In this document: positions 9,956-48,952 of the stretch, one piece after another | Numbering within the stretch: the stretch's first letter is position 1 | How the letters are laid out: every line of letters begins with the position of its first letter | DNA from: Ancylobacter aquaticus | GTDB lineage: Bacteria > Pseudomonadota > Alphaproteobacteria > Rhizobiales > Xanthobacteraceae | Length of the DNA: 64,000 nucleotides | Assembly (NCBI RefSeq): GCF_004339465.1 | Contig: NZ_SMFY01000002.1 | Location: forward strand, 992,001-1,056,000 | Reading direction: 5' to 3' | Translations under genes and position numbers: made by a program | The notes under the pieces: model-generated | Told to the model about the DNA's origin: nothing | What the model saw: only the letters and a program-made list of their open reading frames with translations | The model's database searches: none

Positions 9956-10147
9956 AAAGATTACTCCCAAGTGGTCGCGGTCAATGGGTACATATGGCGG
10001 TATCGCGGCATATGGCGATGTCCTCAGGTGTTCGGATGAAGCGTTGGCAACTCGGGTGCTGGGATGTGCGCTGCCGCTCGGGTTTAGAAGCAGCGCACAT
10101 GGGCCGGGGCCAGAGCTGAGGCCCGAAGGCGTGGCCGGCGCCGAGAC

Positions 10148-14510: not shown

Positions 14511-14549
14511 TTTCGCACGGTTTCATGCGGGTTTGCCTCAGAAGAAGCG

Positions 14550-14597
14550 CGCTCATAACGGTCTGGTTCCCGGTTCGAGTCCGGGCGGGCCCACCAA
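14550..14597 (+). repeat. attR: 48-bp copy of the tRNA 3' end
   Basis: This is an exact copy of 1195-1242: part of the anticodon arm, the variable loop, the T-arm, the 3' acceptor strand and CCA. The 5' half of the tRNA is absent here, so this is not a second tRNA gene but the distal attachment site of the island. Confidence 0.92.
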
Positions 14598-14956
14598 ATC
14601 CATACAAATCAACGACTTAGATGAACTGCCTCGCGGTGGTACATCTCGGTGCGCAATCCAACCTTTTTGCAGCCTTCTCGAAACGAGCATCTACTATCTT
14701 CGATTGCCGATTTCCAAGCGACTGCATCCATTCTCAGTACCAAGCACGTTGAAGATATCGCTACGAACCCGCGATCCCCAAAGTGCATTGCGTCTTTCCC
14801 GCTCCCTCGTCCGTGACGACGAGCAGATCACCGCCGGCGCCGAAACCCTCATCACCATCGCAGAGCCAGCCACGCTCCTGCGCCGATGGCAATGAACCAA
14901 TGCCCTTTTCAAACCCCCTCTGATGCAGTCTTCTCACGAAAGCGGCTTGGGTCGCC
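14598..14956. other. Stretch outside attR with integrase remnant
   Basis: These 359 bases separate the right repeat from the AraC gene and are AT-richer than the following core. Apart from the integrase-like fragment at 14683-14832 no gene can be supported. Confidence 0.45.
14683..14832 (+). pseudogene. N-terminal fragment of a second integrase
   Basis: About 50 codons read 'TSIYYLRLPISKRLHPFSV' followed by 'LKISLRTRDPQSALRLSRSL'. This is the recognisable start of phage-type tyrosine recombinases: a short beta-hairpin (YYLR.P) and then 'SLRTRDPxxALRLSR'. No catalytic domain follows; the frame ends at 14895. It lies just outside attR, so it is probably debris of another element that used the same tRNA. 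Similarity is judged by eye. Confidence 0.45.
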
Positions 14957-16012
14957 GTGATGCAAGTTCTGCACGAAGCGATTCGCCGACTGGGAGTAGC
15001 GCCGGCAGGGAGGGCTGGGAATTTGCGCGAGGCCAGCTCGATTGATGACGCCGTGAGCGGCGTACCGCCCATAGCGTGCTCCACGCTGATCGAGCATGCG
15101 GACCATCAGGCGGCCCTGCAGCCTTGGATACCCATGGAATGCATCCAGCTTGGCAGGGGTCACATTCTCGCACAATTGGATAGTCTCGATCTCAACTGCC
15201 AGCAGGTCGTTCGGGAACGCCAGCAAGCCGCAATACAGAAGTTTGGCCTCACGCCGTTCAATATCTGCACGCTCTCCTACTGCACGCCAAATCCAGCGTT
15301 TCGCTTTTCCGAACTCGGCGCAGGCGATGACAAGACCGTCTTCTTCATGCCGGCCAACACCGAATTCGACCTCCGTGTTCCGGCCGGAGTGGAGACCAAC
15401 TATATCAGCCTGGACCAGCAGGAGTTCCTGCGCGCCGCTCGTGTCCTCAACCCTCGGGGATGGGAGCACCCTCCAACTACAATTCGACAACTCGCGGCCC
15501 TGCAGAAACCCGAGTTGCGGGAAGTCATCGACCTCTGCTTCGCCGTCGCTCACGCGGCGTCCGCGCGTGGCGAAGCGCCCGATGACGCCGCCATGCGCCA
15601 TCTTCTGGTGCAGGCGACGCAACACCTCGCAACGCTGGCCCAGGGGGTGCATCCCCCGCCGTCGCGCACCGCTCACCTGCGCTCGTTTCACATCTGCCGC
15701 CTGGCGCGCGACTTCGCCGAACACCGGCTCGAAGGCGACGAACTGCCGACCGTCTTCGACATATGCTGCGAGGTCGGCGTATGCGAGCGCACGCTGCAAT
15801 ATGCCTTCCGCGACTATATCGGCATGTCGCCCATGGCCTATCTGCGCCTGCTCCGTCTCAACCGGGTACGGGCGGTTCTTCGCGTCTCGTCCCCGCGAGG
15901 AACGACCGTGACCCGCGTTGCGATGCGCTTCGGTTTTCTTCATCTCGGTCGGCTTGCGCAGGATTACCGGCGAGCTTTCGGAGAGCCGCCGTCGGTGACG
16001 CTCGCCTCCTGA
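14957..16012 (+). CDS. AraC family transcriptional regulator
   Basis: The product is 351 aa. The N-terminal 230 residues look like the ligand/cupin-like half of the EutR-type AraC group ('CIQLGRGHILAQLDSL', 'FFMPANTEFDLRVP'). The C-terminal 100 residues hold two helix-turn-helix motifs: 'LPTVFDICCEVGVCERTLQYAFRDY' and 'VTRVAMRFGFLHLGRLAQDYRRAFGEPPS'. Such proteins activate nearby genes. The next gene on the same strand encodes an exported carbonic anhydrase, a plausible target, 241 bases away. No strong ribosome site decides the start. Confidence 0.85.
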   Translation: MMQVLHEAIRRLGVAPAGRAGNLREASSIDDAVSGVPPIACSTLIEHADHQAALQPWIPMECIQLGRGHILAQLDSLDLNCQQVVRERQQAAIQKFGLTPFNICTLSYCTPNPAFRFSELGAGDDKTVFFMPANTEFDLRVPAGVETNYISLDQQEFLRAARVLNPRGWEHPPTTIRQLAALQKPELREVIDLCFAVAHAASARGEAPDDAAMRHLLVQATQHLATLAQGVHPPPSRTAHLRSFHICRLARDFAEHRLEGDELPTVFDICCEVGVCERTLQYAFRDYIGMSPMAYLRLLRLNRVRAVLRVSSPRGTTVTRVAMRFGFLHLGRLAQDYRRAFGEPPSVTLAS

Positions 16013-32979: not shown

Positions 32980-33105
32980 ATGTCGCAGGTCTTGTTGTTC
33001 TTTCCGACAGTTTCTACCAAGTTTTCACCCGGCGTCCATCGGTATCATCCTCACCCCTGCGCGAGTACATCGGCAATCCGAGCGATTTCAATCCTTTGCC
33101 GTGTT

Positions 33106-33128
33106 GCAATGACGATTTTGTGCATTGC
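33106..33128. promoter_or_regulatory. Second candidate activator site
   Basis: GCAATG and CATTGC form exact 6-bp arms around 11 bases. The left part lies in GTGTTGCAAT, which repeats the left arm of the site at 32961. It is immediately upstream of the -24/-12 promoter. Confidence 0.4.
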
Positions 33129-33138
33129 GAAAAGAGGC

Positions 33139-33155
33139 TGGCACGGGCGCTGCAA
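33139..33155 (+). promoter_or_regulatory. Sigma-54 (-24/-12) promoter
   Basis: TGGCACGGGCGCTGCAA has the invariant GG and GC exactly ten bases apart and the -24 block TGGCACG complete. It is 30 bases before the aldehyde dehydrogenase ATG and matches the divergent sigma-54 activator. Confidence 0.8.
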
Positions 33156-33184
33156 TATTGAGTGTCCCAGTCTGGGAGGACCCA

Positions 33185-34702
<1,518 letters not shown>

Positions 34703-34724
34703 GGGTAAAAGAGCCTTCCGCCTT

Positions 34725-34908
34725 CCCTCATGGCCGGGCGTGACCCGGCCACCCGGGCTTTTCACCTGTCGCAGGCGGAAGGCTGGGTCCCCGGGTCGAG
34801 CCCGGGGATGAGGAAGCGGGAGAGCCCGCGCCACCGTCCCTCATGGCCGGGCTTGACCCGGCCACCCGGTCTGCTCACCTCTTGAAGGTAAAAGCCCGGG
34901 GATGAGGG
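34725..34908. repeat. Two copies of a REP-like intergenic repeat
   Basis: Copy 1 begins near 34725 and copy 2 near 34838. Both read 'CCCTCATGGCCGGG(C)' then 'TGACCCGGCCACCCGG', and end in 'CCCGGGGATGAGG'. Each can fold on itself. The same building blocks occur at 24169-24262. They fill the gap between the aldehyde dehydrogenase and DUF779 genes. Confidence 0.65.
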
Positions 34909-35396: not shown

Positions 35397-36329
35397 TCAG
35401 CGCGGCGTCAGCGCCGTCACCGCCAGCGCGGTCGCCGCCGCCCGATTCTCCACCCCGATTTTGGCGTAGATCTGCTCCAGGTGCTTGTTCACCGTGCGCG
35501 GCGACAGGCCGAGGATTTCGCCGATGTCGCGATTTGCCTTGCCGCGCGCCAGCCACACCAGCACCTCGGATTCGCGCAGCGTCAGGCCCAGCTTGGCCTT
35601 CAGCACCTGCTCCGGCGGAATGCCGCTGTCCTCGACAATGCGCAGCAGCAACTCCTCCGGGCCGATCTGCCCGACATAGGAGAGCTTCAGCCGGCGCGCC
35701 GAGCCCTCCATCGCCACCTCGATCGCCTCCGGCTCGATGGCCGCGCCCTCGGCCTTGCGTCCCTCCAGCCAGCGCCGCACGGCCTCCGGCAGGGTAAAGC
35801 TCTCGCCGGGCGGCGAGGTACTGATCGCGGTCAGCAGCGCCGTCGCCTGCGGCGTGCTCCACAGCACCCGCCCGGCCCGGTTGGCGGAGAGCAGGTAACG
35901 CCCGGCGGCGTCCAGCGCGGCGCGGGCGCTGTGGGTCTGGCGGGCATTGGCCAGATGCACGCGGATGCGGGCGATCAGCTCGTCCGGCGAGATCGGCTTG
36001 GTCACATAGTCGACCCCGCCCGCCTCCAGCCCCTTCACGATCTGCTCGGTCTCGGAAAGCCCGGTCATGAAGATGACGGGCACATGCGCCACCGATTTGT
36101 TGCGCTTGAGCCGGCGGCAGGTCTCGAAGCCGTCCATGCCCGGCATGACCGCGTCCATCAGGATCACGTCGGGAGTGATGCGCTCGACCAGCGCCAGCGC
36201 GTTGGCGCCTTCGGTGGCCACCAGCACCGTGGCGCCCGCCGCCTCCAGCGCGTCGGTGAGGAGACTGAGCGTCTCGGGCGAATCGTCCACCACTAGGACG
36301 ATGTCGCGGCGTTCCACGCTATGCATCAT
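35397..36329 (-). CDS. Response regulator, receiver plus LuxR-type output
   Basis: The product is 310 aa. The receiver domain (about 8-128) has 'VLVVDDSPE' and the phosphoacceptor Asp in 'VILMDAVMPGMDG' near residue 58, with Thr in 'FMTGLSE' and Lys in 'VTKPIS'. A middle region of 100 residues is PAS-like and has no certain identity. The C-terminal helix-turn-helix 'LTLRESEVLVWLARGKANRDIGEILGLSPRTVNKHLEQIYAKIGV' (two pieces of the LuxR/GerE domain) binds DNA. The start overlaps the end of the upstream kinase gene by 11 bases, so they form one unit and are surely partners. Confidence 0.92.
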   Translation of the reverse strand: MMHSVERRDIVLVVDDSPETLSLLTDALEAAGATVLVATEGANALALVERITPDVILMDAVMPGMDGFETCRRLKRNKSVAHVPVIFMTGLSETEQIVKGLEAGGVDYVTKPISPDELIARIRVHLANARQTHSARAALDAAGRYLLSANRAGRVLWSTPQATALLTAISTSPPGESFTLPEAVRRWLEGRKAEGAAIEPEAIEVAMEGSARRLKLSYVGQIGPEELLLRIVEDSGIPPEQVLKAKLGLTLRESEVLVWLARGKANRDIGEILGLSPRTVNKHLEQIYAKIGVENRAAATALAVTALTPR

Positions 36330-39300
36330 TGCTGCGCAACGCCTCCAGAACAGACATGTATTGCTTGAGGTCGAAGGTTTCCATCAGGTCGCGCATATGG
36401 GCGACGAAGGCCTTGTTGTCGGGCGAGGCGCCTTCGATTTCCTTGAGCTTGGCCTGGATGCCGCGCACATATCCGATCTCCCCCAGCTTCATCAGGTCAT
36501 CGAGATGCACGCCCGCCGGCGCCCGCAATTCGCCGGGCCGGCTCGCCTCGCCGGCGGCAAGGGCGGCGAGTTCGCCATCGCCCACCCATTCGAGATCGAG
36601 CAGCGCCGCCATCTTTTCCAGCAGCGTGCGCAGATGCACCGGCTTGACCAGATGGTCGTCGTTCTGGGCGAGGCCGTCGCCGAGTATTTCCCCGGCATTG
36701 GCGGAGATCATGATGATGCGCAGCCGCCCGAAGCCCTCGTCGCGCAGCTGGCGCACCACCTCCCAGCCATTGAGGCCGGGCATGGAAATGTCGAGCAGCA
36801 CCATATCCGGCTCCCATTCGCGCACCATATCGAGCGCCTGCACGCCGTCCGTGGCGGCGAGCACGGTGAAGCCGAGCGGCACCAGCAATTCGTGCATGAG
36901 GTCGCGATGGGCGACATCGTCGTCGGCCACCAGCACGGTGCGGCGCGGGCCGGTATAGCCGGCGATGTGGCGGTGCTGGATCGGGCCGAGGCGCGAGGGG
37001 TTGGTCACCTCCGACAGCATCATCTTGACGCGGAAGACGCTGCCCTCCCCCGGCACCGATTTGAGCGAGATTTCGCCGCCCATGATCTCGGTGAGCAGCT
37101 TGGTGATGGTGAGCCCGAGGCCGATACCGGCGGTGGAATAGGTGCCCGCGCGCTCCCCGCGCTCGAACGGCTCGAAGATCCGCGTGTGGTCGGCGGCGGG
37201 AATGCCGATGCCGCTATCCTCGATCTCGAACTCCGCCACCTGGTTGCGATAGGAGACGCGCAGCGCCACCCGGCCCCGCTCGGTGAACTTGATGGCGTTG
37301 GAGAGCAGGTTGATGAGGATCTGCCGCAGCCGCTTCTCGTCGGTGAACACGGTCCCCGGCAGACGGTCGGGGCGGACATAGACGAAATCGATCCCCTTGG
37401 CAGTGGCCTGCAGCCGGAACATGTCGACCAGCTGGTCGAGGAATTCGCCGATCCGCACCTCGTCGCGGGTGAGATAGAGCCGCCCGGCCTCGATCTTGGA
37501 GATGTCGAGCAGCCCGTCGATCAGCCCGGACAGGTGCTCGGCGGAGCGGCGCACCACGCGGATGGCATCGCGACGGTGCGGGGGAATCGCGGTGTCGCGC
37601 TCCAGCAGCTGGGCGTAGCCGAGAATGGCGTTCAGCGGCGTGCGCAATTCGTGGCTGATGCCGACGACATAGCGGCTCTTCGCGAGGTTGGCGGCCTCGG
37701 CGGCCTCCTTGGCCTTCTGCAACTTGGCGTCGGTGCGCTTGTGCGCCTCGATCTCGCGCATCAGGAGCGCGGTCTGGCGGTTGCTCTCCTCCTGCGCCAC
37801 GCGCCGGCTTTCCTGCGCCAGCACGAAAAGCCAGGCGGCGACGCCGGCGATGATCAGCAGGATGAAGTAGAGCGTGAACAGCACATTGCCGACCGTCTCG
37901 GTCTCGCCTGGCGGGGCGAAGGTCGACTGGAAATAGATGACGCCCAATATGCCGCCGATGACCATCGCCAGCAGCGACATCACGCCGATATAGTGGCCCA
38001 GCCGGGAATTGAGCTGCGCCACCATCCAGCCCGGCAGGGTGGCCCGCAGCGCCGCCAGAATCTGGTCGGGAAAGCGCGCATCGTCCTTGCAGCGGTCGTT
38101 GCAGCGTGCATCCAGCGAGCAGCACAGCGAGCAGATCGGCCCGGCATAGACCGGGCAGTGCGCCATGTCCTCCGGCTCGAACTTGTGCTCGCAGATGCAG
38201 CATTTGAGCGAGTGGCGCGCATCCCAGTTCTTCGCCGTGCGCCGCGCGATGTAGTAGCGCCCCCCGGTGGCGTAGGCGATGCCGGCCGCCGAGACGAACG
38301 AGACCACCAGCGCCAGGAACGGCGCGAACACTTTCACGGTCGGCCCGAAGAAGCCTGCAAAGGCGATGACGCCGATCACCGTGCCGGCGAGCAGCGCCCC
38401 GACACCGACCGGATTGATGTCGTAGAGATGCGCGCGCTTGAACTCGATGCCCGGCGGGCTCCAGCCCATCGGCTTGTTGACCACGAGGTCGGCCACCAGC
38501 GCCGCCACCCACGCTACCGCGACGATGGAATACAGGCCGAGGATCTGCTCCAGCACCTTGTAGATGCCGAGCGCCATCAGCATCAGCGCGATGGTGACGT
38601 TGAACACCAGCCACACCACCCGGCCGGGATGGCTGTGGGTCAGGCGGGAGAAGAAGTTCGACCAGGCGATCGAGCCGGCATAGGCGTTCGTCACATTGAT
38701 CTTGAGCTGCGCCAGGATGACGAAGAGCCCGGTGAAGGCCAGCGCCATCTCCGGCGAGAACACGGTCCTGAACGCCACCAGATACATCTGGGTCGGCTCG
38801 GCGGCGTGCAGGAAGGGGATGCCCTGGGTCAACGCGAAATAGGCAAGGAACGAGCCCGCCAGCATCTTGATCCCGCCGGGAATGATCCAGCCCGGACCGG
38901 CGCTGAGCAGCGCCACCCACCAAAGCACGTTGCGCCGGGTCTCGGTGCGGCCGGGCGCCCGGCGCGGCAGGAAGCGCAGGAAATCGACCTGCTCGCCGAT
39001 CTGGGCAATCAGCGCGAACACCACCGTGGTCGCGGTGCCGAACAGCACGAGATCGAACGAACCGTCGGGGGCGCCGAAGCGGCCGGTATAGGAAGTCCAC
39101 CCCGCCAGTGGCTCGTCGTAGAGCGCGAAGATGAAGATGAAGGGAATGATGTTGAGCACCAGCCAGACCGGCTGGGTCCAGAGCTGGAAACGGCTGATGA
39201 AGGTGATGCCGTGGGTCACCAGCGGAATCACCACCAGCGCGCTGATGAAATAGCCCACCATGAGCGGCACGCCGAAGCACATCTCCAGCGCCAGCGCCAT

Positions 39301-39741
39301 GATCGCCGCCTCGATGGCGAAGAACAGATAGGTGAAGGAGGCGTAGATCAGCGAGGTGAGCGTCGAGCCGATATAGCCGAAGCCGGCGCCGCGGGTCAGC
39401 AGGTCGATGTCGACGCCGAACTTGGCGGCGTAATAGCTGATCGGCAGGCCGGCGATGAAGATGATGGTGCAGACCACCAGGATCGCCGCCACCGCATTGG
39501 GGAAGCCATAGGCAAGTGTGATCGCCCCGCCGATCGCCTCCAGCGCCAGGAAGGACACCGCACCGAGCGCCGTGTTGGCGACCCGCAGCGCCGACCAGCG
39601 GCGTGCGCTCTTGGCGGTGAAGCGGAGCGCATAGTCCTCCAGCGTCTCGTTGACGACCCACTGATTGTAGCGGCGCCGAACGCGAACGATCTTCTGCTCC
39701 GCCGCCATTGGGTTTTGCCTCGCCGTGCCAACGCCAGACAT
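36319..39741 (-). CDS. NCS1-type permease fused to a hybrid sensor histidine kinase
   Basis: The product is 1140 aa, or 1129 if the ATG at 39708 with GAGG upstream is used. Residues about 50-500 are an NCS1 (purine/cytosine-permease-like) membrane domain of about twelve helices, with 'NVTNAYAGSIAWSNFFSRL' as the clearest signature. Residues 510-551 hold nine cysteines. Two membrane helices (about 575-640) and a linker coiled coil follow. HisKA has 'GISHELRTPLN' with His near 696; HATPase_c has 'NLLSNAIKF' and 'GIGLGLTI'; a C-terminal receiver has 'MVLLDISMPG' with Asp near 981. It lies next to its response regulator and divergent from an amide ABC transporter. It probably senses a nucleobase, hydantoin or amide-like solute through the permease fold. 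Confidence 0.9.
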   Translation of the reverse strand: MSGVGTARQNPMAAEQKIVRVRRRYNQWVVNETLEDYALRFTAKSARRWSALRVANTALGAVSFLALEAIGGAITLAYGFPNAVAAILVVCTIIFIAGLPISYYAAKFGVDIDLLTRGAGFGYIGSTLTSLIYASFTYLFFAIEAAIMALALEMCFGVPLMVGYFISALVVIPLVTHGITFISRFQLWTQPVWLVLNIIPFIFIFALYDEPLAGWTSYTGRFGAPDGSFDLVLFGTATTVVFALIAQIGEQVDFLRFLPRRAPGRTETRRNVLWWVALLSAGPGWIIPGGIKMLAGSFLAYFALTQGIPFLHAAEPTQMYLVAFRTVFSPEMALAFTGLFVILAQLKINVTNAYAGSIAWSNFFSRLTHSHPGRVVWLVFNVTIALMLMALGIYKVLEQILGLYSIVAVAWVAALVADLVVNKPMGWSPPGIEFKRAHLYDINPVGVGALLAGTVIGVIAFAGFFGPTVKVFAPFLALVVSFVSAAGIAYATGGRYYIARRTAKNWDARHSLKCCICEHKFEPEDMAHCPVYAGPICSLCCSLDARCNDRCKDDARFPDQILAALRATLPGWMVAQLNSRLGHYIGVMSLLAMVIGGILGVIYFQSTFAPPGETETVGNVLFTLYFILLIIAGVAAWLFVLAQESRRVAQEESNRQTALLMREIEAHKRTDAKLQKAKEAAEAANLAKSRYVVGISHELRTPLNAILGYAQLLERDTAIPPHRRDAIRVVRRSAEHLSGLIDGLLDISKIEAGRLYLTRDEVRIGEFLDQLVDMFRLQATAKGIDFVYVRPDRLPGTVFTDEKRLRQILINLLSNAIKFTERGRVALRVSYRNQVAEFEIEDSGIGIPAADHTRIFEPFERGERAGTYSTAGIGLGLTITKLLTEIMGGEISLKSVPGEGSVFRVKMMLSEVTNPSRLGPIQHRHIAGYTGPRRTVLVADDDVAHRDLMHELLVPLGFTVLAATDGVQALDMVREWEPDMVLLDISMPGLNGWEVVRQLRDEGFGRLRIIMISANAGEILGDGLAQNDDHLVKPVHLRTLLEKMAALLDLEWVGDGELAALAAGEASRPGELRAPAGVHLDDLMKLGEIGYVRGIQAKLKEIEGASPDNKAFVAHMRDLMETFDLKQYMSVLEALRSNDA

Positions 39742-40200
39742 GCTTCCGCGCTCACCCTCCCCAGGGCATTTCGTGTTTTTTGCACCGCATCAGTCCCGGC
39801 CGGTTGCGAAAAACCGCCCCGGACGGCGAAGCACAAATCATTCCACTCGCACCAGATCGGTCGCGAAAGGTTATTACGCGACCCAATGACGCATCTCGGT
39901 ACCGCATGCAGAGAACATCTTCTCCGCCATGCCCAATAATAAGGCTGACCGTCGAACTATTGTGCCCGTCACCCGCCTTCTGTTCTCGCGCGCGCGCGTA
40001 AAATAGATGCCGCCGCACGCGAAAATCTTCGCGACGGGGCACACAAACCCATGTTCGGCTCCACTGTGCGGGAGCGCCGGCGGTTCCCCTATACGTCAAT
40101 CGACGTATTGCTGCATCGCGACATCGGCCGCCACGATCCAGCCAATGCAAGCAGCTGAGAAGCTTGTTGAGGCCACGTCAAACCCGTGGAGGGGAACCGT
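39742..40200. promoter_or_regulatory. Divergent control region with an 18-bp perfect palindrome at 40091-40108
   Basis: The 459-bp gap separates the kinase gene (minus) from the transporter operon (plus). ATACGTC-AATC-GACGTAT at 40091-40108 is a perfect dyad, 93 bases before the substrate-binding-protein ATG. It is of the size and spacing used by LuxR-type response regulators and is the best candidate target of the regulator encoded at 35397-36329. GGAGGGG seven bases before 40201 sets the start. No gene is supported within the gap. Confidence 0.5.
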
Positions 40201-41484
40201 ATGTCTTCCGATAAAGATAATTCTAACAAGATTTCCAGTACGCGCCGCAAGTTGCTGATGGGCATTGCCGCGCTCCCGGCGGTGCCTCTTCTTGCGTCCA
40301 CCGGCCTTTTTTCGACGCCCGCAATGGCGCAGGCCCCCGCCACCTCGGCGGTGAACACCACCGGCCTCGCCGTTACCGACACTGAAGTGACCGTCGGCAT
40401 CCTGCACTCCGTGACCGGCACCATGGCCATTTCGGAGACCGGCTCGGTGCAGGCCGAGAAGCTGGCGATCGAGCAGATCAACGCCATGGGCGGCGTGCTC
40501 GGCCGCAAGATCAAGTTCATCCAGGAAGACGGCGCCTCCGACTGGCCGACCTTCGCCGAGAAGGCGAAGAAGCTGCTGGTCAACGACAAGGTCGCGGCCA
40601 TCATGGGCTGCTGGACCTCGGCGTCCCGCAAGGCGGTGCTGCCGGTGGTCGAGCAGTATAACGGCATGCTCTACTACCCCACCTTCTATGAAGGGCTGGA
40701 GCAGTCCAAGAACGTCATCTACACCGGCCAGGAAGCCACCCAGCAGATCCTCGCCGGCCTCGACTGGGTTGCCAAGGAGAAGAAGAGCAAGACCTTCTAC
40801 CTCATCGGCTCGGACTATATCTGGCCGCGCACCTCGATGAAGATCGCCCGCAAGCACATTGAGGGGCATCTGAAGGATTCGTCCGTCGTCGGCGAGGAGT
40901 ATTTCCCGCTCGGCCACACCCAGTTCAACTCGGTCATCAACAAGATCAAGCTGCGCAAGCCGGACGTGATCTACGCCGCCGTCGTCGGTGGCTCCAACGT
41001 CGCCTTCTACAAGCAGCTCAAGGCGGCCGGTATCGACCTGTCCAAGCAGACCCTGCTGACCATCTCGGTCACCGAGGACGAGATCGACGGCATCGGCGGC
41101 GAGAACATCGCTGGCGCCTACAGCTCGATGAAGTATTTCCAGTCGCTCGACAACCCGAACAACAAGGAATTCGTCGCCGCCTTCAAGAAGATGTGGGGCG
41201 AGAAGACCGTGATCGGCGACGTTACCCAGGCGGCCTATCTCGGCCCGTGGCTGTGGAAAATGACCGTCGAGAAGGCCGGCTCCTTCGACATCGACAAGAT
41301 TGCCGCCGCCTCGGCCGGCATCGAGTTCAACAAGGCGCCGGAAGGCTACGTCAAGATCCACGACAACCATCATCTCTGGTCGAAGGCCCGCATCGGCCTC
41401 GCGCTGCCCGATGGCCAGTTCCAGGTGGTGTTCGAGACCCCGGACCTGATCGAGCCCGATCCGTTCCCGAAGGGTTACCAGTGA
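40201..41484 (+). CDS. Urea/short-chain amide ABC transporter substrate-binding protein
   Basis: The product is 427 aa. 'STRRKLLMG' followed by a hydrophobic stretch and 'AMAQA' near residue 43 is a Tat-like signal. The mature protein is of the UrtA/FmdD/AmiC group: 'VGILHSVTGTMAISE', 'MGCWTSASRKAVLPVVEQYNG' split in two, 'YPTFYEGLEQSKNVIYTG' and 'GSDYIWPRTS'. It captures urea, formamide or a similar amide in the periplasm for the permease encoded downstream. With formamidase in the same operon, an amide is favoured over urea. UrtA-like naming is by family. Confidence 0.9.
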   Translation: MSSDKDNSNKISSTRRKLLMGIAALPAVPLLASTGLFSTPAMAQAPATSAVNTTGLAVTDTEVTVGILHSVTGTMAISETGSVQAEKLAIEQINAMGGVLGRKIKFIQEDGASDWPTFAEKAKKLLVNDKVAAIMGCWTSASRKAVLPVVEQYNGMLYYPTFYEGLEQSKNVIYTGQEATQQILAGLDWVAKEKKSKTFYLIGSDYIWPRTSMKIARKHIEGHLKDSSVVGEEYFPLGHTQFNSVINKIKLRKPDVIYAAVVGGSNVAFYKQLKAAGIDLSKQTLLTISVTEDEIDGIGGENIAGAYSSMKYFQSLDNPNNKEFVAAFKKMWGEKTVIGDVTQAAYLGPWLWKMTVEKAGSFDIDKIAAASAGIEFNKAPEGYVKIHDNHHLWSKARIGLALPDGQFQVVFETPDLIEPDPFPKGYQ

Positions 41485-41585: not shown

Positions 41586-42512
41586 ATGTTCGCTGACTAT
41601 TCGCTGGCCGAGCTTGGCTCGATTTTCGTGATGCAGGGCTTCGCAGGCCTCATCCTGTTCTCGGTTTTCGTCCTCATGGCCCTCGGCCTCGCCATCATCT
41701 TCGGCCAGATGGGCGTCATCAACATGGCGCATGGCGAGTTCATGATTCTCGGCGCCTATGTCACCTATTTCACCTCGCAATTCTTCCTGAACTACATTCC
41801 ATCCCTGTTCGGCGCCTATTTCTTCCTTGCCATGATACTTGCCTTCTTCGCCGCCGGCGCGCTCGGCATGGCGGTTGAATGGCTGATGATACGGCGGCTC
41901 TACAAGCGGCCACTCGACACGCTGCTCGCCACCTGGGGCCTGAGCCTCATCCTCCAGCAGCTCTACCGCACCGTTTTCGGCCCGCGCGAGGTCGGCGTGG
42001 AACTGCCGAACTGGATGATGGGCTCCCTCCCCGTCAGCGAGATGGTGGAAGTTCAGATCAACGGCCTGTTCGTCATGGCGCTCACCATCGCCATCACCGT
42101 GGCCGTAGCCCTGCTCATGTACAAGTCGAGCTGGGGCAAGCAGGTGCGCGCCGTGGTGCAGAACCGCGTCATGGCCGGCGCCGTGGGCATCGATACCGAG
42201 AAGGTCGACCGCTACACCTTCGGCCTCGGCTGCGGCATTGCCGGCGTCGCCGGTTCGGCCTTCACCATGATCGGCTCGACCGGCCCCACCTCCGGCCAGC
42301 TCTACATCGTCGACACCTTCCTGGTCGTCGTCTTCGGCGGCGCGCAGAGCCTGCTCGGCACCATCGCCTCCGCCTTCACCATCTCGCAGGCCCAGTCGAC
42401 CATGGAGTTCTTCCTCTCCGGTTCGATGGCCAAGGTCCTCACGCTGCTCGGCGTGGTCATCATCCTGATGCTGCGGCCGCAGGGCCTGTTCGTCATCAAG
42501 GTCCGTCGCTGA
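41586..42512 (+). CDS. Branched-chain/urea-type ABC transporter permease (UrtB-like)
   Basis: The product is 308 aa with about eight membrane helices. 'LGLAIIFGQMGVINMAHGEFMILGAY' is the LivH/UrtB signature, and 'GAQSLLGTIASAFTISQAQ' lies near the ATPase-contact loop. It is the first membrane subunit of the amide/urea importer. It is followed ten bases later by the second permease, and shares with UrtB the 'ExGVELPNWM' type region. Confidence 0.9.
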   Translation: MFADYSLAELGSIFVMQGFAGLILFSVFVLMALGLAIIFGQMGVINMAHGEFMILGAYVTYFTSQFFLNYIPSLFGAYFFLAMILAFFAAGALGMAVEWLMIRRLYKRPLDTLLATWGLSLILQQLYRTVFGPREVGVELPNWMMGSLPVSEMVEVQINGLFVMALTIAITVAVALLMYKSSWGKQVRAVVQNRVMAGAVGIDTEKVDRYTFGLGCGIAGVAGSAFTMIGSTGPTSGQLYIVDTFLVVVFGGAQSLLGTIASAFTISQAQSTMEFFLSGSMAKVLTLLGVVIILMLRPQGLFVIKVRR

Positions 42513-42522
42513 GGAGGCGCAC

Positions 42523-43695
42523 ATGATCAAGTCCGACCGCACCTTCTTCCTGCGCCCGCAGGACATGATCGGGATCGCGATCCTCGCCTTCCTCCTGATC
42601 GTCATCCTGCCGCTGAGCCTGGACAATTTCCGCCTCCAGTTCGTCGGCAAGTACCTCACCTACGCCTTCGTCGCGCTCGGCCTGGTGCTGTGCTGGGGCT
42701 ATGCCGGCATTCTCTCGCTCGGCCAGGGCGTGTTCTTCGGCCTTGGCGGCTACTGCATGGCCATGTTCCTCAAGCTGGAATCGTCCAGCGTCGAGGCCAC
42801 CAAAATCCAGACCACGCCGGGCATTCCGGACTTCATGGACTGGAACCAGATCACCGAGCTGCCCTATATGTGGCAGCCCTTCAACAGCCTCACCCTCACC
42901 ATCATCGCGGTGATCCTGGTGCCGGCGCTGTTCGCCTTCATCGTCGGCTTCGCGATGTTCAAGCGGCGGGTGGGCGGCGTGTACTTCGCCATCATCACCC
43001 AGGCGCTGGCGGCGATCATGACCATCCTGATCATCGGCCAGCAGGGCTATACCGGCGGCATCAACGGCATCACCGACCTGCGCACGCTGAACGGCTGGGA
43101 CATCCGCTCCGACAGCGCCAAGACGATCCTCTATTTCGTCTGCGTCGCCCTGCTCCTTGCCTGCATCCTGATCGCCTATTTCGTGAAGTCCTCGAAGCTC
43201 GGCCGCATCCTCGTCGCCATGCGCGACAAGGAGGACCGGGTGCGCTTCTCCGGCTATGACGTCGCCAATTTCAAGGTGTTCGTGTTCTGCCTTGCCGCCT
43301 CGCTCTCCGCCATTGGCGGGGCGATGTTCACGCTGCAGGTCGGCTTCATGTCGCCCTCCTTCGTCGGCATCGTGCCCTCGATCGAAATGGTGATCTACGC
43401 GGCGGTCGGCGGGCGCCTGTCCATCCTCGGCGCCATCTACGGCACGCTGCTGGTGAACTGGGCCAAAACCTCCTTCTCCGAGAGCTTCCCCGAACTCTGG
43501 CTGTTCGGCCTTGGCGGCCTGTTCATCGCCGTGGTGCTGATCTTCCCGAACGGCATTGCCGGCCTCTGGCAGACCTATATCGCCCCGCGCCTCGGCCCGC
43601 TGTTCGGCGGCGCCGCCACGCGCCGGGCCAGCCCTCCCGCGACGCCGCCCGCCCCGCCGTCCCCCTCGGCGGCCGCCCCCGCCGCCGCCGAATAG
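42523..43695 (+). CDS. Branched-chain/urea-type ABC transporter permease (UrtC-like)
   Basis: The product is 390 aa with about ten membrane helices. 'WGYAGILSLGQGVFFGLGGYCMAMFL' and 'AMRDKEDRVRFSGYDVANFKVFVF' are LivM/UrtC signatures. The last 35 residues are a Pro/Ala/Ser tail (RRASPPATPPAPPSPSAAAP) that is not part of the family core and is probably disordered. It is the second membrane subunit and lies between UrtB-like and the first ATPase. Confidence 0.9.
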   Translation: MIKSDRTFFLRPQDMIGIAILAFLLIVILPLSLDNFRLQFVGKYLTYAFVALGLVLCWGYAGILSLGQGVFFGLGGYCMAMFLKLESSSVEATKIQTTPGIPDFMDWNQITELPYMWQPFNSLTLTIIAVILVPALFAFIVGFAMFKRRVGGVYFAIITQALAAIMTILIIGQQGYTGGINGITDLRTLNGWDIRSDSAKTILYFVCVALLLACILIAYFVKSSKLGRILVAMRDKEDRVRFSGYDVANFKVFVFCLAASLSAIGGAMFTLQVGFMSPSFVGIVPSIEMVIYAAVGGRLSILGAIYGTLLVNWAKTSFSESFPELWLFGLGGLFIAVVLIFPNGIAGLWQTYIAPRLGPLFGGAATRRASPPATPPAPPSPSAAAPAAAE

Positions 43696-43706
43696 GAGCG
43701 CACGCC

Positions 43707-44474
43707 ATGAACAGCGCTGTCATCGCCGACACCATGAACAAGGATTTCGTCCTTGCGGTGGAAGGCCTCACGGTCTCCTTCGACGGCTTCAAGGCGGTCA
43801 ACGACCTCTCCTTCTATGTCGACGAGAACGAGATCCGGGTCATCATCGGCCCCAACGGGGCCGGCAAGACCACGGTGCTTGACCTCATCTGTGGGCGCAC
43901 CAAGGCGACCACCGGCTCCATCCGCTTCAAGGAGCGCGAGCTGACCAAGATGAAGGAGCACGAGATCGTGCGGGCCGGGGTGGGGCGCAAGTTCCAGAAC
44001 CCGTCGATCTACGAGGACCTGACCGTCTTCGAGAACCTGGAAATCTCCTACCCCAAGGGCCGCTCGGTTCCGGGCGCCCTCACCTTCCGGCGCGACCGGG
44101 CGGTGAAGGAGCGGGTGCAGGAGATCGCCGAGACCATCTTCCTCGCCGACCAGCTCGACCAGCGCGCCGAATATCTCTCGCACGGCCAGAAGCAGTGGCT
44201 GGAGATCGGCATGCTGCTCATCCAGGACCCGGAACTGCTCATGCTCGACGAGCCGGTCGCCGGCATGAGCGTCTCCGAGCGCAAGAAGACCGCCGAACTG
44301 CTCAACACCATCATCAAGAACCGTTCGGTGATCGTGATCGAGCACGACATGAAGTTCGTCGAGGACATCGCCCACAAGGTGACGGTGCTGCACCAGGGCA
44401 AGATTCTCTCGGAAGGCTCGATGGCCAAGGTCCAGGCGGACCCGAAGGTCATCGAAGTCTATCTCGGCCATTGA
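43707..44474 (+). CDS. ABC transporter ATPase (UrtD-like)
   Basis: The product is 255 aa. Walker A GPNGAGKTT near 48-56, signature LSHGQ in 'YLSHGQKQWLEIGMLL', Walker B 'LLMLDEP' near 180, H-loop 'VIEHDMKFVEDIA'. The LSHGQ form and 'KFQNPSIYEDLTVFENL' are typical of UrtD. It powers import together with the next gene. AGGAGCG precedes the ATG; an in-frame ATG 27 bases downstream could also serve. Confidence 0.93.
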   Translation: MNSAVIADTMNKDFVLAVEGLTVSFDGFKAVNDLSFYVDENEIRVIIGPNGAGKTTVLDLICGRTKATTGSIRFKERELTKMKEHEIVRAGVGRKFQNPSIYEDLTVFENLEISYPKGRSVPGALTFRRDRAVKERVQEIAETIFLADQLDQRAEYLSHGQKQWLEIGMLLIQDPELLMLDEPVAGMSVSERKKTAELLNTIIKNRSVIVIEHDMKFVEDIAHKVTVLHQGKILSEGSMAKVQADPKVIEVYLGH

Positions 44475-44484
44475 GGGGCGGATC

Positions 44485-45174
44485 ATGCTGAACGTATCCA
44501 GGCTGCACGTCTCCTATGGCGAGAGCGAGGTTCTGCACGGCCTCAACTTCAAGGTCGCGCCCAACGAGATCATCGCCATCATGGGCCGCAACGGCATGGG
44601 CAAGACCACGCTCATGAAGTCGCTCATGGGCATCGTGCCGACCAAGAGCGGCATGGTGAGTGTCGGCGCCACCGACATCACCAACTTCAAAAGCTATGAG
44701 CGCGTGAAAAACGGCGTCGCCTACGTACCGCAGGGCCGCATGATCTTCTCCACCATGACGGTGCAGGAGAACATCGAAACCGGCCTCATCCCGCGCGGCG
44801 AGAGCAAGGTGCCGCCCGACATCTACGAGCTGTTCCCCGTGCTGCTTGAGATGAAGGGCCGGCGCGGCGGCAATCTTTCCGGCGGCCAGCAGCAGCAGCT
44901 CGCCATCGCCCGCGCGCTCGCCACGGCACCCAAGGTGCTGCTGCTCGACGAGCCGACCGAGGGCATCCAGCCCTCCATCATCCGCGAGATGGCCCGCACG
45001 CTGAAGCGCATCCGCGACGAGCGCGGCCTGTCCATCGTGGTGTCCGAACAGGTGCTGTCCTTCGCCCTCGACATCGCCGACCGCGTGCTGGTGATCGAGA
45101 ACGGCGAGATCGTCCACGAGGATCTGCGCGCCGACATCGACGAGGCCAAGGTCTCGAAATTCCTGTCGGTCTGA
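44485..45174 (+). CDS. ABC transporter ATPase (UrtE-like)
   Basis: The product is 229 aa. Walker A GRNGMGKTT near 36-44, signature LSGGQ in 'GGNLSGGQQQQLAIARAL', Walker B 'VLLLDEPTEGIQPSI', H-loop region 'SIVVSEQVLSFALD'. 'GRNGMGKTT' and 'PTEGIQPSII' are UrtE hallmarks. It is the second ATPase of the heteromeric importer, ten bases after the first. Confidence 0.93.
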   Translation: MLNVSRLHVSYGESEVLHGLNFKVAPNEIIAIMGRNGMGKTTLMKSLMGIVPTKSGMVSVGATDITNFKSYERVKNGVAYVPQGRMIFSTMTVQENIETGLIPRGESKVPPDIYELFPVLLEMKGRRGGNLSGGQQQQLAIARALATAPKVLLLDEPTEGIQPSIIREMARTLKRIRDERGLSIVVSEQVLSFALDIADRVLVIENGEIVHEDLRADIDEAKVSKFLSV

Positions 45175-45239
45175 GCCCCTGCCAGACCTCTTCGCCCAGC
45201 CTGCCCGAGATTCCAGCTTGCCCAAGGGGAGTGAGAAGA

Positions 45240-46469
45240 ATGACCGAGACACTGATCAAAGTTGACCTCAACCAGTCGGCCTATGACAACGACATGGTTC
45301 ACAACCGCTGGCACCCGGACATCCCGATGGTGGCGTGGGTGAAGCCGGGCGACGATTTCATCGTCGAGACCTATGACTGGACCGGCGGCTTCATCAAGAA
45401 CAACGATTCCGCCGACGACGTGCGCGACATCGACCTGTCGATCGTGCATTTCCTCTCCGGCCCCATCGGCGTCAAGGGCGCCGAGCCGGGCGACCTGCTG
45501 GTGGTCGACCTGCTCGACATCGGCGCCATGCCCGACAGCCAGTGGGGCTTCAACGGCTTCTTCTCGAAGAACAATGGCGGCGGCTTCCTGACCGACCATT
45601 TCCCGCAGGCTCAGAAGTCGATCTGGGACTTCAAGGGCATGTACACCTCCTCGCGCCACATCCCGGGCGTGAACTTCGCCGGCCTCATCCATCCCGGCCT
45701 GATCGGCTGCCTGCCCGATCCGAAGCTGCTGGAGACCTGGAACACCCGCGAACAGGCGCTGATCGACACCAACCCGACCCGCGTTCCCGCGCTCGCCGTC
45801 CCGCCCTTCGCCGCCACCGCCCATATGGGCCGGCTGACCGGCGACGCGAAGGCCGCCGCCGCCGCCACCGGCGCGCGCACCGTTCCCCCGCGCGAACATG
45901 GCGGCAATTGCGACATCAAGGACCTGTCGCGCGGCTCCAAGATCTATTTCCCCGTCTATGTCGAAGGCGGCGGCCTCTCCATGGGCGACCTGCATTTCAG
46001 CCAGGGCGACGGCGAGATCACCTTCTGCGGCGCCATCGAGATGGCCGGCTGGGTCCACCTCAAGGTCGAGGTGCTCAAGGGCGGCATGGCGAAATACGGG
46101 ATCAAGAATCCCATCTTCAAGCCCTCGCCGGTGACGCCGAACTACAAGGACTACCTGATCTTCGAGGGCATCTCGGTCGACGAGTATGGCGGCCAGCACT
46201 ATCTCGACGTCCACATCGCCTATCGCCAGGCCTGCCTCAACGCCATCGAATACCTGAAGAAGTTCGGCTATTCCGGCGCCCAGGCCTATTCGATCCTCGG
46301 CACCGCGCCGGTGCAGGGGCATATTTCGGGCGTCGTCGATATTCCCAACGCCTGCGCCACCCTGTGGCTGCCGACCGAAATCTTCGACTTCGACATCAAC
46401 CCGACCGCCGATGGGCCGACCAAGTTCATCGACGGCTCGATCGACATGCCGCTTTCACCGGACCTTTGA
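45240..46469 (+). CDS. fmdA: Formamidase
   Basis: The product is 409 aa, the length of Methylophilus FmdA (about 407). It hydrolyses formamide to formate and ammonia in the cytoplasm. The acetamidase/formamidase fold shows 'VHNRWHPDIPMVAWVKPGD' near 20, 'SSRHIPGVNFAGLIHPGLIG' near 140, 'PPREHGGNCDIKDLSRGS' near 220 and 'VEGGGLSMGDLHFSQGDGEI' near 240. I start at 45240, with GGGGAG ten bases upstream, rather than a GTG nine bases before. It ends the transporter operon together with fmdB and gives its likely substrate class. Confidence 0.95.
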   Translation: MTETLIKVDLNQSAYDNDMVHNRWHPDIPMVAWVKPGDDFIVETYDWTGGFIKNNDSADDVRDIDLSIVHFLSGPIGVKGAEPGDLLVVDLLDIGAMPDSQWGFNGFFSKNNGGGFLTDHFPQAQKSIWDFKGMYTSSRHIPGVNFAGLIHPGLIGCLPDPKLLETWNTREQALIDTNPTRVPALAVPPFAATAHMGRLTGDAKAAAAATGARTVPPREHGGNCDIKDLSRGSKIYFPVYVEGGGLSMGDLHFSQGDGEITFCGAIEMAGWVHLKVEVLKGGMAKYGIKNPIFKPSPVTPNYKDYLIFEGISVDEYGGQHYLDVHIAYRQACLNAIEYLKKFGYSGAQAYSILGTAPVQGHISGVVDIPNACATLWLPTEIFDFDINPTADGPTKFIDGSIDMPLSPDL

Positions 46470-46490
46470 CCCCCACTTAGTCCGGTGCAT

Positions 46491-46519
46491 GCGGGGCGAT
46501 GCCAAAGGCGTCGCCCCGC
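46491..46519 (+). terminator. Hairpin between fmdA and fmdB
   Basis: GCGGGGCGATGCC pairs with GGCGTCGCCCCGC (13 pairs, one T-G) around AAA. No T run follows, so it may be an mRNA-stability or partial-termination element inside the operon. Confidence 0.5.
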
Positions 46520-46580
46520 CCTTACCTCAGAGGAAACGCCCAAGGGGTCGCCCTCAAGACCCGCACACAGGGACACGCTC

Positions 46581-46937
46581 ATGCCCGTCTACGAATATGA
46601 ATGCGAGAGCTGTGGCGATTTCACCGCCATGCGGCCGATGAGCGAGTATCAGGCGCCCCAGCCCTGCCCGGAGTGCAGCGCGATGGCGCCGCGCGTCATG
46701 CTGACGGCGCCCCACTTCTCCGGCATGTCGCGCGACAGCCTCACCGCCCACGCCACCAATGAGCGGGCAAGCCACGCGCCGATGACGACGGGCGAGTATG
46801 CGGCGAAGAAGCACCCGTCGAGCTGCTCTTGCTGCTCCGGCGGCATGAAGAGCCGCAGCAAGAAATCCAAGACCGCCACCGCCGCGTCAGGCGCCAAGAG
46901 CTTCCCCTCGGCGCGCCCGTGGATGATCAGCCACTGA
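46581..46937 (+). CDS. fmdB: FmdB family zinc-ribbon protein
   Basis: The product is 118 aa. 'MPVYEYECESCGDFTAMRPM' and 'PQPCPECSAMAPRVML' give the two CxxC pairs of the FmdB zinc ribbon (residues 8-34). The rest is flexible, with a second small Cys cluster 'SSCSCCSGG' near 81-89 and a Lys/Ser-rich stretch. FmdB was named as a putative regulator of formamidase in Methylophilus; how it acts is not established. It is 111 bases behind fmdA. Confidence 0.9.
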   Translation: MPVYEYECESCGDFTAMRPMSEYQAPQPCPECSAMAPRVMLTAPHFSGMSRDSLTAHATNERASHAPMTTGEYAAKKHPSSCSCCSGGMKSRSKKSKTATAASGAKSFPSARPWMISH

Positions 46938-47066: not shown

Positions 47067-48818
47067 TCACTCCCCGATCGCAACGCCCTCGCGGCGCGGA
47101 TCGGCGGCGCCGATGAGCCCTCCCGGCGTGATTGCCACCGCCTGTACCCCTGAGGTCATCGGCATCGTCTTCACCTCGAAGCCGAGTTGCTTCAGCCCCG
47201 GCGCCAGCCCCTCCGCCGCCGTTCCCGCCTCGATTTCCACCGCGTCGAAGCGCGCCAGCACGTTCGGTGCGGCGATGGCGTCGGCAAGGCCCAGGCCCCA
47301 GTCGAGATGGGCAATCAGCGTCTTCGCGACATAGCCGATGATCTGGCTGCCACCGGGCGAGCCGAGCGCCAGCACCGGGCGCCCGTCTTTCAGCACCACC
47401 GTCGGCGCCATGGAGGAACGCGGGCGCTTGCCCGGCTCGACCCGGTTGGCCACCGGCACGCCGTCCCTGTGCGAGCGGAAGGAGAAGTCCGTCAGCTCGT
47501 TGTTCAGCAGGAAGCCACCCACCATCAGCCGCGAACCGAAGCCGGCCTCGATGGTCGAGGTCATCGAGACGACATTGCCCTCGCCATCGACAATGGTGAT
47601 CTGGGTGGTGGAGGGCAGTTCAGGCGCCGCGCCATCTGCCCGCGCCGGGGGAACCATCGCGTGATCCCATGGGGGCATGCCCGCCGCGACCTCCGGCAGC
47701 GCATCGTCGCCGGCCAACAGCTTTGCCCGCGCGTCGAGATAGTCGCGCGCCAGCAGCCCCCGGGTCGGCATCGGCACGAAATCGACATCGGCGATGTAGC
47801 GCTCGCGGTCGGCAAAGGCGAGGCGCGAGGCATCGGCGATCAGTCGCCACGCTTCGGGTGAGGAGGGGCCAAGCGCCGCCAGGTCATAAGGCTCCAGCAG
47901 GCCGAGAATCTGGCCGAGCGTGATCCCCCCGGAACTCGGCGGCCCCATGCCGCAGACCTCGAAGCCCCGATAGCCGCCGCAAACCGGCGCCCTCTCCTTC
48001 ACTTGATAGCTGGCGAGATCCTCCATCGCCAGCAGGCCGGGATTGGCCGCATTGCGGACCGCGCCGACGATTTCCTGCGCCAGCGCGCCGTCATAAAAAG
48101 CGGCCGCGCCGCCGGTGCGCAACGCCCGGAGCGTGCCGGCATAGGCGGGGTTCTTCAGCAGGGTGCCTTCCCGCAATGGCGCGCCACCAGCGTCGAGAAA
48201 ATAGGCCCGCGCCGCCGTGTCGCGCGCCAGCAGGGCGGCGTCGCCGGCAATCAGCCCGGCAAGGCGGGGAGAGACGGCAAATCCGTTTTCCGCCCGTTCC
48301 AGCGCGGGGTCGAACAGCCGCTTCCAGTCCAGCCGGCCATAGCGCTTGTGAACCGTCTCCAGCAGCGCCGGTGTGCCGGGCGTGCCGACCGAGCGCCCGC
48401 CGATCACCGCCTCCAGGAAGGCGAGCGGCTGGCCCTCCGCATTCTGGAACAGGGTCGGGGTCGCCGCGCGCGGCGCCGTCTCGCGCCCGTCGAAGGTGGT
48501 GAGCCGGCTCGTGCCCGCATCCCAATAGACCAAGAAGGCACCGCCCCCGAGGCCGGAGGATTGCGGTTCCACCAGCCCGAGCACGAGCTGGACCGCGATG
48601 AGGGCGTCGATGGCATTGCCGCCCGCGCGCAGCATCTCCGCGCCGGCCTCCGCCGCCAGCGGGTTGGCCGCCGTCACCATCCAGTCCTTGCCGGTGGCGG
48701 TCTTCTGGCCAGCAGCACGCGCGCTTGCCAGCTCCGGCGCGTGGCTGTCGGAGATTTGCTGGGCGTGCAGCGGCGTTGCCACCAGCACCAGCGCGAACAA
48801 GCACGGCCAAAGCTTCAT
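47067..48818 (-). CDS. ggt: Gamma-glutamyltransferase
   Basis: The product is 583 aa. A signal peptide ends at 'LHAQQ' (near residue 20). The proenzyme cleaves itself before the catalytic Thr in 'ELPSTTQITIVD', near residue 402, to give the large and small subunits. 'GLGGGAFLVYWD', 'PPSSGGITLGQIL' and 'GSPGGSQIIGYV' are family motifs. It degrades glutathione and other gamma-glutamyl compounds in the periplasm. GGAAGGGACGTG before the ATG sets the start at 48818, over an in-frame ATG 24 bases upstream. Confidence 0.94.
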   Translation of the reverse strand: MKLWPCLFALVLVATPLHAQQISDSHAPELASARAAGQKTATGKDWMVTAANPLAAEAGAEMLRAGGNAIDALIAVQLVLGLVEPQSSGLGGGAFLVYWDAGTSRLTTFDGRETAPRAATPTLFQNAEGQPLAFLEAVIGGRSVGTPGTPALLETVHKRYGRLDWKRLFDPALERAENGFAVSPRLAGLIAGDAALLARDTAARAYFLDAGGAPLREGTLLKNPAYAGTLRALRTGGAAAFYDGALAQEIVGAVRNAANPGLLAMEDLASYQVKERAPVCGGYRGFEVCGMGPPSSGGITLGQILGLLEPYDLAALGPSSPEAWRLIADASRLAFADRERYIADVDFVPMPTRGLLARDYLDARAKLLAGDDALPEVAAGMPPWDHAMVPPARADGAAPELPSTTQITIVDGEGNVVSMTSTIEAGFGSRLMVGGFLLNNELTDFSFRSHRDGVPVANRVEPGKRPRSSMAPTVVLKDGRPVLALGSPGGSQIIGYVAKTLIAHLDWGLGLADAIAAPNVLARFDAVEIEAGTAAEGLAPGLKQLGFEVKTMPMTSGVQAVAITPGGLIGAADPRREGVAIGE

Positions 48819-48952
48819 CACGTCCCTTCCCTCTGCGCGCACTCATGATTGCGCGCCGTAACGCGAAGTGAACAGCGGATTTCGCCATTGCACTGCAACA
48901 AGCGCGTGACCTTTCGACGAATCGGTCTAAGCTGCAGATGTCTTCAACAACT

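Follow-up and report, generated by a model that had tools for sequence, protein, structure and literature searches.

What does a histidine kinase do with a permease as its N-terminal half, and which genes does it control? The question is raised by a gene on the minus strand (36319-39741) of a 64,000-nucleotide stretch of Ancylobacter aquaticus DNA, here called the window. Coordinates are positions in the window unless a locus (L-number) is named, and residue numbers are those of the window kinase. The encoded protein joins an NCS1-type membrane domain to a hybrid histidine kinase, and its gene is divergent from an amide/urea importer operon. Comparison of related loci makes the regulatory link from the kinase and its partner regulator to the importer well supported. 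We consider it fairly probable that the protein is a transceptor kinase for urea and short-chain amides that induces its own importer.

Domain organization of the kinase and its regulator

The open reading frame (ORF) of the kinase is uninterrupted across the full 1140 residues, and its GC content by codon position (0.64/0.43/0.90) matches the expectation for a gene in a GC-rich genome. The true start may be Met12 (39708) instead of 39741, because the family consensus begins at Met12. The kinase, its parts and the neighboring regulator are as follows (TM, transmembrane).

36319-39741, minus strand: hybrid histidine kinase, 1140 residues, in the order NCS1, Cys-rich segment, two TM helices, HisKA, HATPase, receiver
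38299-39654, minus strand: NCS1-type membrane domain, residues about 30-481 (hhalign; AlphaFold and Foldseek)
38089-38202, minus strand: Cys-rich segment, residues 514-551, zinc-finger-like, of no Pfam family
37807-38004, minus strand: two extra TM helices, residues about 580-645, running into a long helix before HisKA (hydropathy; AlphaFold model)
37483-37680, minus strand: HisKA, residues 688-753, with phospho-acceptor His697 in the H-box (Pfam)
37018-37344, minus strand: HATPase_c, residues 800-908 (Pfam)
36613-36936, minus strand: receiver (Response_reg), residues 936-1043, with Asp984 (Pfam)
35397-36329, minus strand: response regulator, 310 residues, with a receiver (11-123), a PAS-like middle (about 144-234) and a GerE/LuxR helix-turn-helix (249-303)

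A sequence-only reading of the window had proposed that NCS1, HisKA, ATPase and receiver domains form one chain whose gene overlaps that of a LuxR-type response regulator. Both proposals hold. The kinase domains are found by Pfam and the NCS1 domain by the profile and fold comparisons described below; the two genes overlap by 11 bp and the second encodes receiver and GerE domains. All the parts of a hybrid histidine kinase with a LuxR-type partner are present.

Four features had gone unmentioned in that reading: an 8-Cys segment, two further TM helices, the PAS-like middle of the regulator and a palindrome at 40092-40107. Hydrophobic helices fill the first 500 kinase residues by hydropathy, and the Pfam scan of the kinase shows nothing ahead of residue 688. 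The stretch between residues 500 and 688, which has no Pfam domain (the STAC profile was not part of the scan), holds the Cys segment and the two TM helices. Its eight cysteines (514, 517, 529, 537, 540, 541, 547 and 551) are invariant across 44 diverse family members, and the segment probably binds zinc. In the structure model, regulator residues 144-234 have the strand and helix order of a PAS domain, unseen by Pfam. This assignment rests on the order of the elements and on the known PAS topology; the PAS-like middle is possibly a second input.

Identity of the membrane domain

The 44 family members form alignment A1, from which rows at least 80% identical to a kept row were removed and loci from a separate genome search were omitted. 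Compared by hhalign with 29 distinct PF02133 proteins, A1 gives a probability of 99.3 (E 9.4e-21) over 395 columns, spanning residues 30-457. An SLC5 (SSF) identity was rejected, since against 10 distinct SSF proteins the probability is 3.9 over 60 columns that lie outside the core. The AlphaFold model of kinase residues 1-672 has a predicted local distance difference test score of 83.2 and a predicted template-modelling score of 0.84. Its top solved match in a Foldseek search of the PDB is CodB (7qoa; E 8.1e-10, template-modelling score 0.77 by target). Mhp1 (2jln) is found at E 4.4e-9, and CodB and Mhp1 together occupy ranks 1-5. The other LeuT-fold families (Nramp, SLC5, APC) trail, from E 1e-5.

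Searches of other kinds gave no NCS1 match. Pfam has none at E of 10 or below for residues 1-505, the PF02133 cut-off is reached by none of the 44 A1 members, PF02133 has no match in the organism's own genome, and phmmer with the single kinase sequence gives no NCS1 signal. The A1 profile finds no NCS1 chain among PDB sequences; its lone match, of RING type (E 5.1), was judged to be chance. These misses are not read as absence of NCS1, because the profile-profile and fold comparisons are decisive. A stand-alone permease at locus L157 scores 36.4 bits with PF02133 (cut-off 23.5) and is 28% identical to the kinase (E 3.5e-32). By profile and model, then, the membrane domain belongs to NCS1, in a branch beyond the reach of the Pfam model PF02133.

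The divergent importer and its conservation

The genes divergent from the kinase are listed below with the NCBIfam families that identify them.

40201-41484, plus strand: urtA-like amide/urea-binding protein (TIGR03407, 539.5 bits, cut-off 492.75)
41586-42512, plus strand: urtB permease (TIGR03409, above cut-off)
42523-43695, plus strand: urtC permease (TIGR03408, above cut-off)
43707-44474, plus strand: urtD ATPase (TIGR03411, above cut-off)
44485-45174, plus strand: urtE ATPase (TIGR03410, above cut-off)
45231-46469, plus strand: fmdA formamidase (NF045496, 773.9 bits, cut-off 500)
46485-46937, plus strand: fmdB-like zinc-ribbon protein (TIGR02605 and NF053663, above cut-offs)

The ORF tool starts urtA at 40186; an ATG at 40201 is preceded by a purine-rich stretch. 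All five UrtA-E families score above their cut-offs, which predicts an amide/urea ATP-binding cassette importer of the Urt/FmdDEF type. The divergent amide transporter with formamidase that had been proposed from the letters is therefore borne out.

Conservation of the gene order was assessed in 80 named loci, the best 80 of at least 593 relatives in a scan of named genomes. A Urt-type binding-protein gene is divergent from the kinase in 76 of them, the reverse of what would be seen if the fusion were unrelated to amide or urea uptake. The aligned starts of kinase and urtA are at most 1.5 kb apart in 71 of the 76. The four loci without a UrtA match are L063 and L098 (contigs shorter than 6 kb), L092, and L085, where urease and urt genes lie about 3-9 kb downstream. 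In 78 of the 80 loci a regulator gene follows downstream, encoded on the strand of the kinase, and in 75 it lies within 60 nt, with a median overlap of 10 nt. Its position deviates in L031, L072 (where the kinase frame is interrupted, 689 residues) and L088, and the two loci without a regulator are contig ends. The H-box is of the SHELR type in 73 of the 80 kinase frames and SHEIR, AHELR or THELR in five; two frames stop before it.

Judged by UrtA, the importer is of the amide type (closer to the window UrtA) in 64 loci and of the canonical urea type in 12. Formamidase is present in 55 of the 64 amide-type loci, and the other nine stretches stop inside that operon or short of it. Among the 12 urea-type loci, four (L083, L091, L104 and L108) show urease genes. 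On a tree of 78 of the 81 kinases (80 loci plus the window) and three other proteins, importer type needs three changes, against a mean of 11.3 when shuffled. The kinase-regulator pair has therefore changed its partner importer, amide or urea type, on more than one occasion.

A palindrome upstream of urtA

Unsupervised counting in the 76 kinase-urtA intergenic regions found a shared palindrome, which in the window is the following element.

40092-40107, no strand: palindrome TACGTCAATCGACGTA (TACGTC-N4-GACGTA), predicted regulator binding site upstream of urtA

The end of TACGTCAATCGACGTA is 93 bp before the urtA ATG. Exact TACG-N8-CGTA occurs in 52 of the 76 regions (dinucleotide shuffles: mean 0.16, maximum 2 in 50 rounds), and at least 11 of the 12 positions of TACGTC-N4-GACGTA are matched in 34, against 0 in shuffles. 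By the criterion of 11/12 of the longer consensus or exact TACG-N8-CGTA, the site is also found outside the discovery set, in L063, the Klebsiella plasmid L240, the Chelatococcus plasmid L246, Acinetobacter baumannii L245 and L159 (upstream of urtA).

The core of the palindrome varies with the recognition helix of the regulator. This helix, SPRTVNKHLEQ in the window, carries N281. Seven of the 76 regions, scoring below 18, were left out, and 66 of the remaining 69 had the regulator residue. Asn at 281 goes with a TC half-core in 33 of 35 cases, Asp with its absence in 23 of 23, and Thr is divided four and four. Residue 281 has the highest mutual information of the 63 GerE columns, 0.70 bit.

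Several observations weigh against taking the palindrome as the operator. Its discovery and its counting share the same 76 regions. In the window alone TACG-N8-CGTA is within chance (one occurrence, and one or more in 15 of 100 shuffles), and a genome search that tolerates one mismatch gives two places versus three for the reversed control; the weight of the palindrome therefore lies in its conservation across loci. No such site was found in L085, L092, L098, L158, L160, L155 or L156, or ahead of the permease genes of L241, L242 and L244. Columns 246 and 258, outside the helix, come close behind residue 281 at 0.67 and 0.63 bit, and with so narrow a lead shared descent explains part of the association. 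The D281 rows are mostly Bradyrhizobium and relatives; L071 (Aureimonas) lies elsewhere in the kinase tree. A sigma-70 scan of the kinase-urtA intergenic region found no promoter-like site.

The direction of control is not readable from sequence, and no importer was found within 21.9 kb in L092, a locus that also counts against the general link. The pair could thus repress the importer, or mainly control some other target and have only a historical place beside urt. We regard this as very improbable. The genome has no second exact copy of the window site, the site sits at urtA in L103, L105 and L108, where other genes separate kinase and urtA, and it is carried by loci of both importer types and by the permease locus L245. 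Of the earlier proposal that the kinase switches on the importer, the control itself is supported by the shared palindrome upstream of urtA and the agreement of its core with the recognition helix; that this control is activation and not repression is what we infer.

Sister permeases and the probable ligand

The nearest kinase-less relatives are one clade of five permeases, including a Streptomyces member, that is sister to 47 kinases (Shimodaira-Hasegawa-like approximate likelihood-ratio test 100, with a distant outgroup). The permease of L241 shows about 41% identity, and four cysteines of the Cys motif are kept in the permeases of L241, L242 and L244. One on an Acinetobacter plasmid lies upstream of ureEFGJDABC, one in Klebsiella is the last gene of a urease operon, and one in Moraxella is divergent from fmdA (formamidase). 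In A. baumannii L245 (NZ_CP104448, 4382-10605) an NCS1 kinase and its regulator are divergent from a sister-clade NCS1 permease, with TACGCAAAATAACGTA (a TACG-N8-CGTA site) between kinase and permease. By sequence, sensor and transporter at this locus are paralogues.

Three lines of comparison point to urea and short amides rather than hydantoins or nucleobases. First, changes of importer type have not separated the kinase from its importer. Second, the nearest stand-alone permeases sit at urease or formamidase genes and, outside TM1, have the same compared pocket residues. Third, the L245 kinase and regulator are divergent from a sister permease with the site between them. A link to guanidine riboswitches and UctT was checked in the window and in L240-L244, where no such family scores above the gathering score.

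The Klebsiella gene at L242 (CP125156, 6956-8563) is annotated as a 'cytosine permease' and by kinship may be a urea permease. The 4.1-Mb record of L245 is filed as a plasmid. Two records of 'Acinetobacter phage MD-2021a' (CAKLQF020000001 and CAKLQH020000001, 329-379 kb) carry an NCS1 permease that shares 87% identity with the Acinetobacter one and are perhaps bacterial DNA filed as phage.

Pocket residues: receptor or transporter?

Mhp1 residues W117, Q121, S312, T313 and N318, which we take to form the substrate and Na2 sites (S312 and T313 the latter), align by hhalign and phmmer with kinase F140, E144, K347, I348 and N352. The presumed Na2 residues of NCS1 are thus not kept in the kinase, which has K347 and I348 instead, and K347 is invariant in A1. 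At the S312 position the aligned stand-alone relatives have Arg or Lys and seven conventional NCS1 proteins have Thr, Gly, Ala or Asp. The sister permeases have E144, Q247, E250, Q251, D253, K347, N349 and N352 in common with the kinases, and the compared pocket positions are identical between the two except in TM1, where E68 is the only kinase-specific residue left. A GEQ motif in TM6 was rejected as kinase-specific, the sister permeases having it too; a D-[FY]-x-R-[FY] pattern in TM6 is common to the kinase and NCS1 permeases. Alignments disagree by a 3-residue gap on where Mhp1 W220 falls in TM6, and no claim is built on that residue.

Position 140 could distinguish substrates. Among 175 columns near-invariant in amide-type kinases (62 of the 64, those long enough), F140 is the most altered in urea-type kinases, being Leu in 10 of 12, in two separate lineages. 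The two urea-type kinases of Acetobacteraceae lack the change and urease-linked permeases keep Phe, which weighs against such a reading; the comparison is suggestive only and there is no simple code.

The near identity of the compared pocket positions to those of stand-alone permeases would also fit a working secondary transporter, with the kinase reading flux or the imported solute inside the cell. CbrA, whose SLC5 domain transports L-histidine, both transports and signals (PMC7096432). The invariant K347 resembles Lys196, which the Na2 site of CbrA holds and for which proton-coupled transport was proposed (PMC13022988). TM1 speaks against this account, its unwound stretch being L67-E68 in kinases versus D67-F68 in stand-alone permeases, as if retuned, and the ammonium sensor kinase Ks-Amt5 shows that a fused transporter can bind its solute, ammonium, and not translocate it (PMC5764959). 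We think it rather unlikely that transport explains the signal, and prefer a receptor role for the NCS1 domain, which it might have instead of or besides a transporter role.

Distribution and architectural variants

The permease-kinase arrangement is found widely among Proteobacteria. Of the 61 genomes from the window's family, 19 have a match to the N-terminal 639 residues, and in 18 of these genomes the frame is at least 894 residues long. In its phylum 42 of 299 genomes match A1, 38 in such frames; the remaining four are one permease, one 623-residue case and two fragments. Among the matches listed, Ancylobacter dichloromethanicus is the window's nearest named relative (97%). A search of 398 genomes with the Cys/TM segment alone (A2) gave matches in 56, mostly in frames of 1026-1365 residues. 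The exceptions are two frames of 894 and 899 residues (NCS1 kept, different kinase), one of 623 residues lacking NCS1, one 50-residue fragment and two weak matches. With so few exceptions, NCS1, Cys segment and kinase form a largely fixed architecture.

In genome G365 one kinase of the family lacks the NCS1 part, which counts against a sensory role of that part. CbrA provides a precedent for cytoplasmic sensing, and by this analogy the NCS1 domain might not be the sensor (PMC9100948). It could then be mainly a membrane scaffold for a cytoplasmic signal, such as nitrogen status or a molecule bound by the PAS-like part of the regulator, whose element order in the model agrees with that idea. Two findings make this quite unlikely: 144 of the first 672 kinase residues are identical in at least 98% of 97 aligned rows, above the expectation for a scaffold, and the nearest permeases have their genomic context in common with the kinases. 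Receptor function of the NCS1 domain is still the reading we prefer.

Variants of the system were seen at other loci. L234 (6857-9705) encodes an NCS1-less family kinase of 618 residues that begins at a Cys remnant and TM pair, and there the regulator gene faces the kinase. L155 (7502-10183) and L156 (7663-10347) encode paralogue kinases with the same NCS1-Cys-TM part and a different kinase half without a receiver; the L156 kinase gene is followed by one for a receiver and kinase protein. Both have a formamidase nearby, and urtA-D were not found in either stretch. On the conjugative IncF Klebsiella plasmid L240 (NZ_CP065035, 4921-15276) formamidase-urtEDCBA is divergent from an NCS1 kinase, with a copy of the palindrome; its regulator ORF, 14332-15276, is missing from the gene table. 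Klebsiella accounts for 342 of the 534 plasmid-collection records matching the sensor region, and in the rows listed the kinase gene is labelled 'ATP-binding protein', 'response regulator' or ArcB.

Elsewhere in the window, an aldehyde dehydrogenase (33125-34702, plus strand) and a gamma-glutamyltranspeptidase (47067-48842, minus strand) lie near the cluster. A minus-strand ORF opposite the former (33014-34834) has no Pfam match and is probably no gene. There is a tRNA at 1166-1238 (plus strand).

Proposed mechanism

In the mechanism we propose, the NCS1 permease domain would be the receptor, binding urea- or formamide-type solutes. A conformational change would be relayed through the Cys-rich, probably zinc-binding, segment and the two extra TM helices to the HisKA and ATPase domains, and phosphate would be passed to the overlapping receiver-PAS-LuxR regulator. 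The regulator would bind the palindrome at 40092-40107 and switch on urtABCDE-fmdAB, so that the high-affinity importer and formamidase are made when substrate is present.

Such a pathway would supply a regulator for the use of formamide and urea nitrogen in soil, rhizobial, methylotrophic and marine bacteria and on Klebsiella plasmids. If it is correct, the near-identical pockets make kinase and permease a matched pair for how a transporter becomes a receptor. Transporter-fused kinases are few; here the pair differs at one TM1 stretch in many genomes, and the palindrome is a ready readout.

Comparison with known systems

In the open literature, subscription papers being mostly outside the search, no description of an NCS1-fused kinase was found, as a family or otherwise. 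The closest counterparts are CbrA, CrbS and RpuS, histidine kinases that likewise begin with a LeuT-fold transporter domain. Both RpuS and CrbS are of the hybrid SLC5/STAC type and have a LuxR-type regulator as partner; RpuS/R controls the pyruvate symporter MctP (PMC9100948). Like them, the present kinase is a hybrid with a C-terminal receiver and a LuxR-type partner (CrbR, RpuR). CrbR depends on an inverted repeat in the promoters it acts on (PMC5715377). Even for CbrA, the way in which the substrate is sensed is not yet settled (PMC13022988). Three features set the present kinase apart from CbrA, CrbS and RpuS. First, its transporter is NCS1 and not SLC5. Second, the 8-Cys segment and two more TM helices lie between membrane domain and HisKA, where Pfam shows no domain. 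Third, its neighbors are genes for amide/urea import and hydrolysis. We lean slightly toward a separate class of transceptor kinases, in which a urea/short-amide NCS1 permease was recruited once as receptor, a zinc-cluster coupling module replaced STAC, and amide/urea importers of three kinds, including the kinase's own sister permease, came under control.

Ks-Amt5 also joins a nitrogen-solute transporter to a histidine kinase (PMC5764959); its Amt fold is of another family. CodB, Mhp1 and the permeases of L241, L242 and L244 have the same fold as the NCS1 part and no kinase. AmiC/AmiR control of amidase, as at L157, serves an amide-type system too, but through an AmiR-type antiterminator and not a two-component pair. 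There (7949-12984) an NCS1 permease, a CN-hydrolase, an AmiC-like binding protein and an AmiR/ANTAR protein stand in a row, by sequence a probable amide-inducible amidase operon with its own permease.

Two clusters from the literature may be set beside this one. For the fmdCABDEF cluster of Methylophilus methylotrophus, the published passages compared mention no NCS1 kinase. In Ectopseudomonas guguanensis a hybrid kinase and a LuxR-type regulator are reported beside a second urtABCDE, with no permease domain mentioned in the available text (PMC13296017); this looks like the same cluster. For such a Urt system formamide import has been proposed (PMC13209695).

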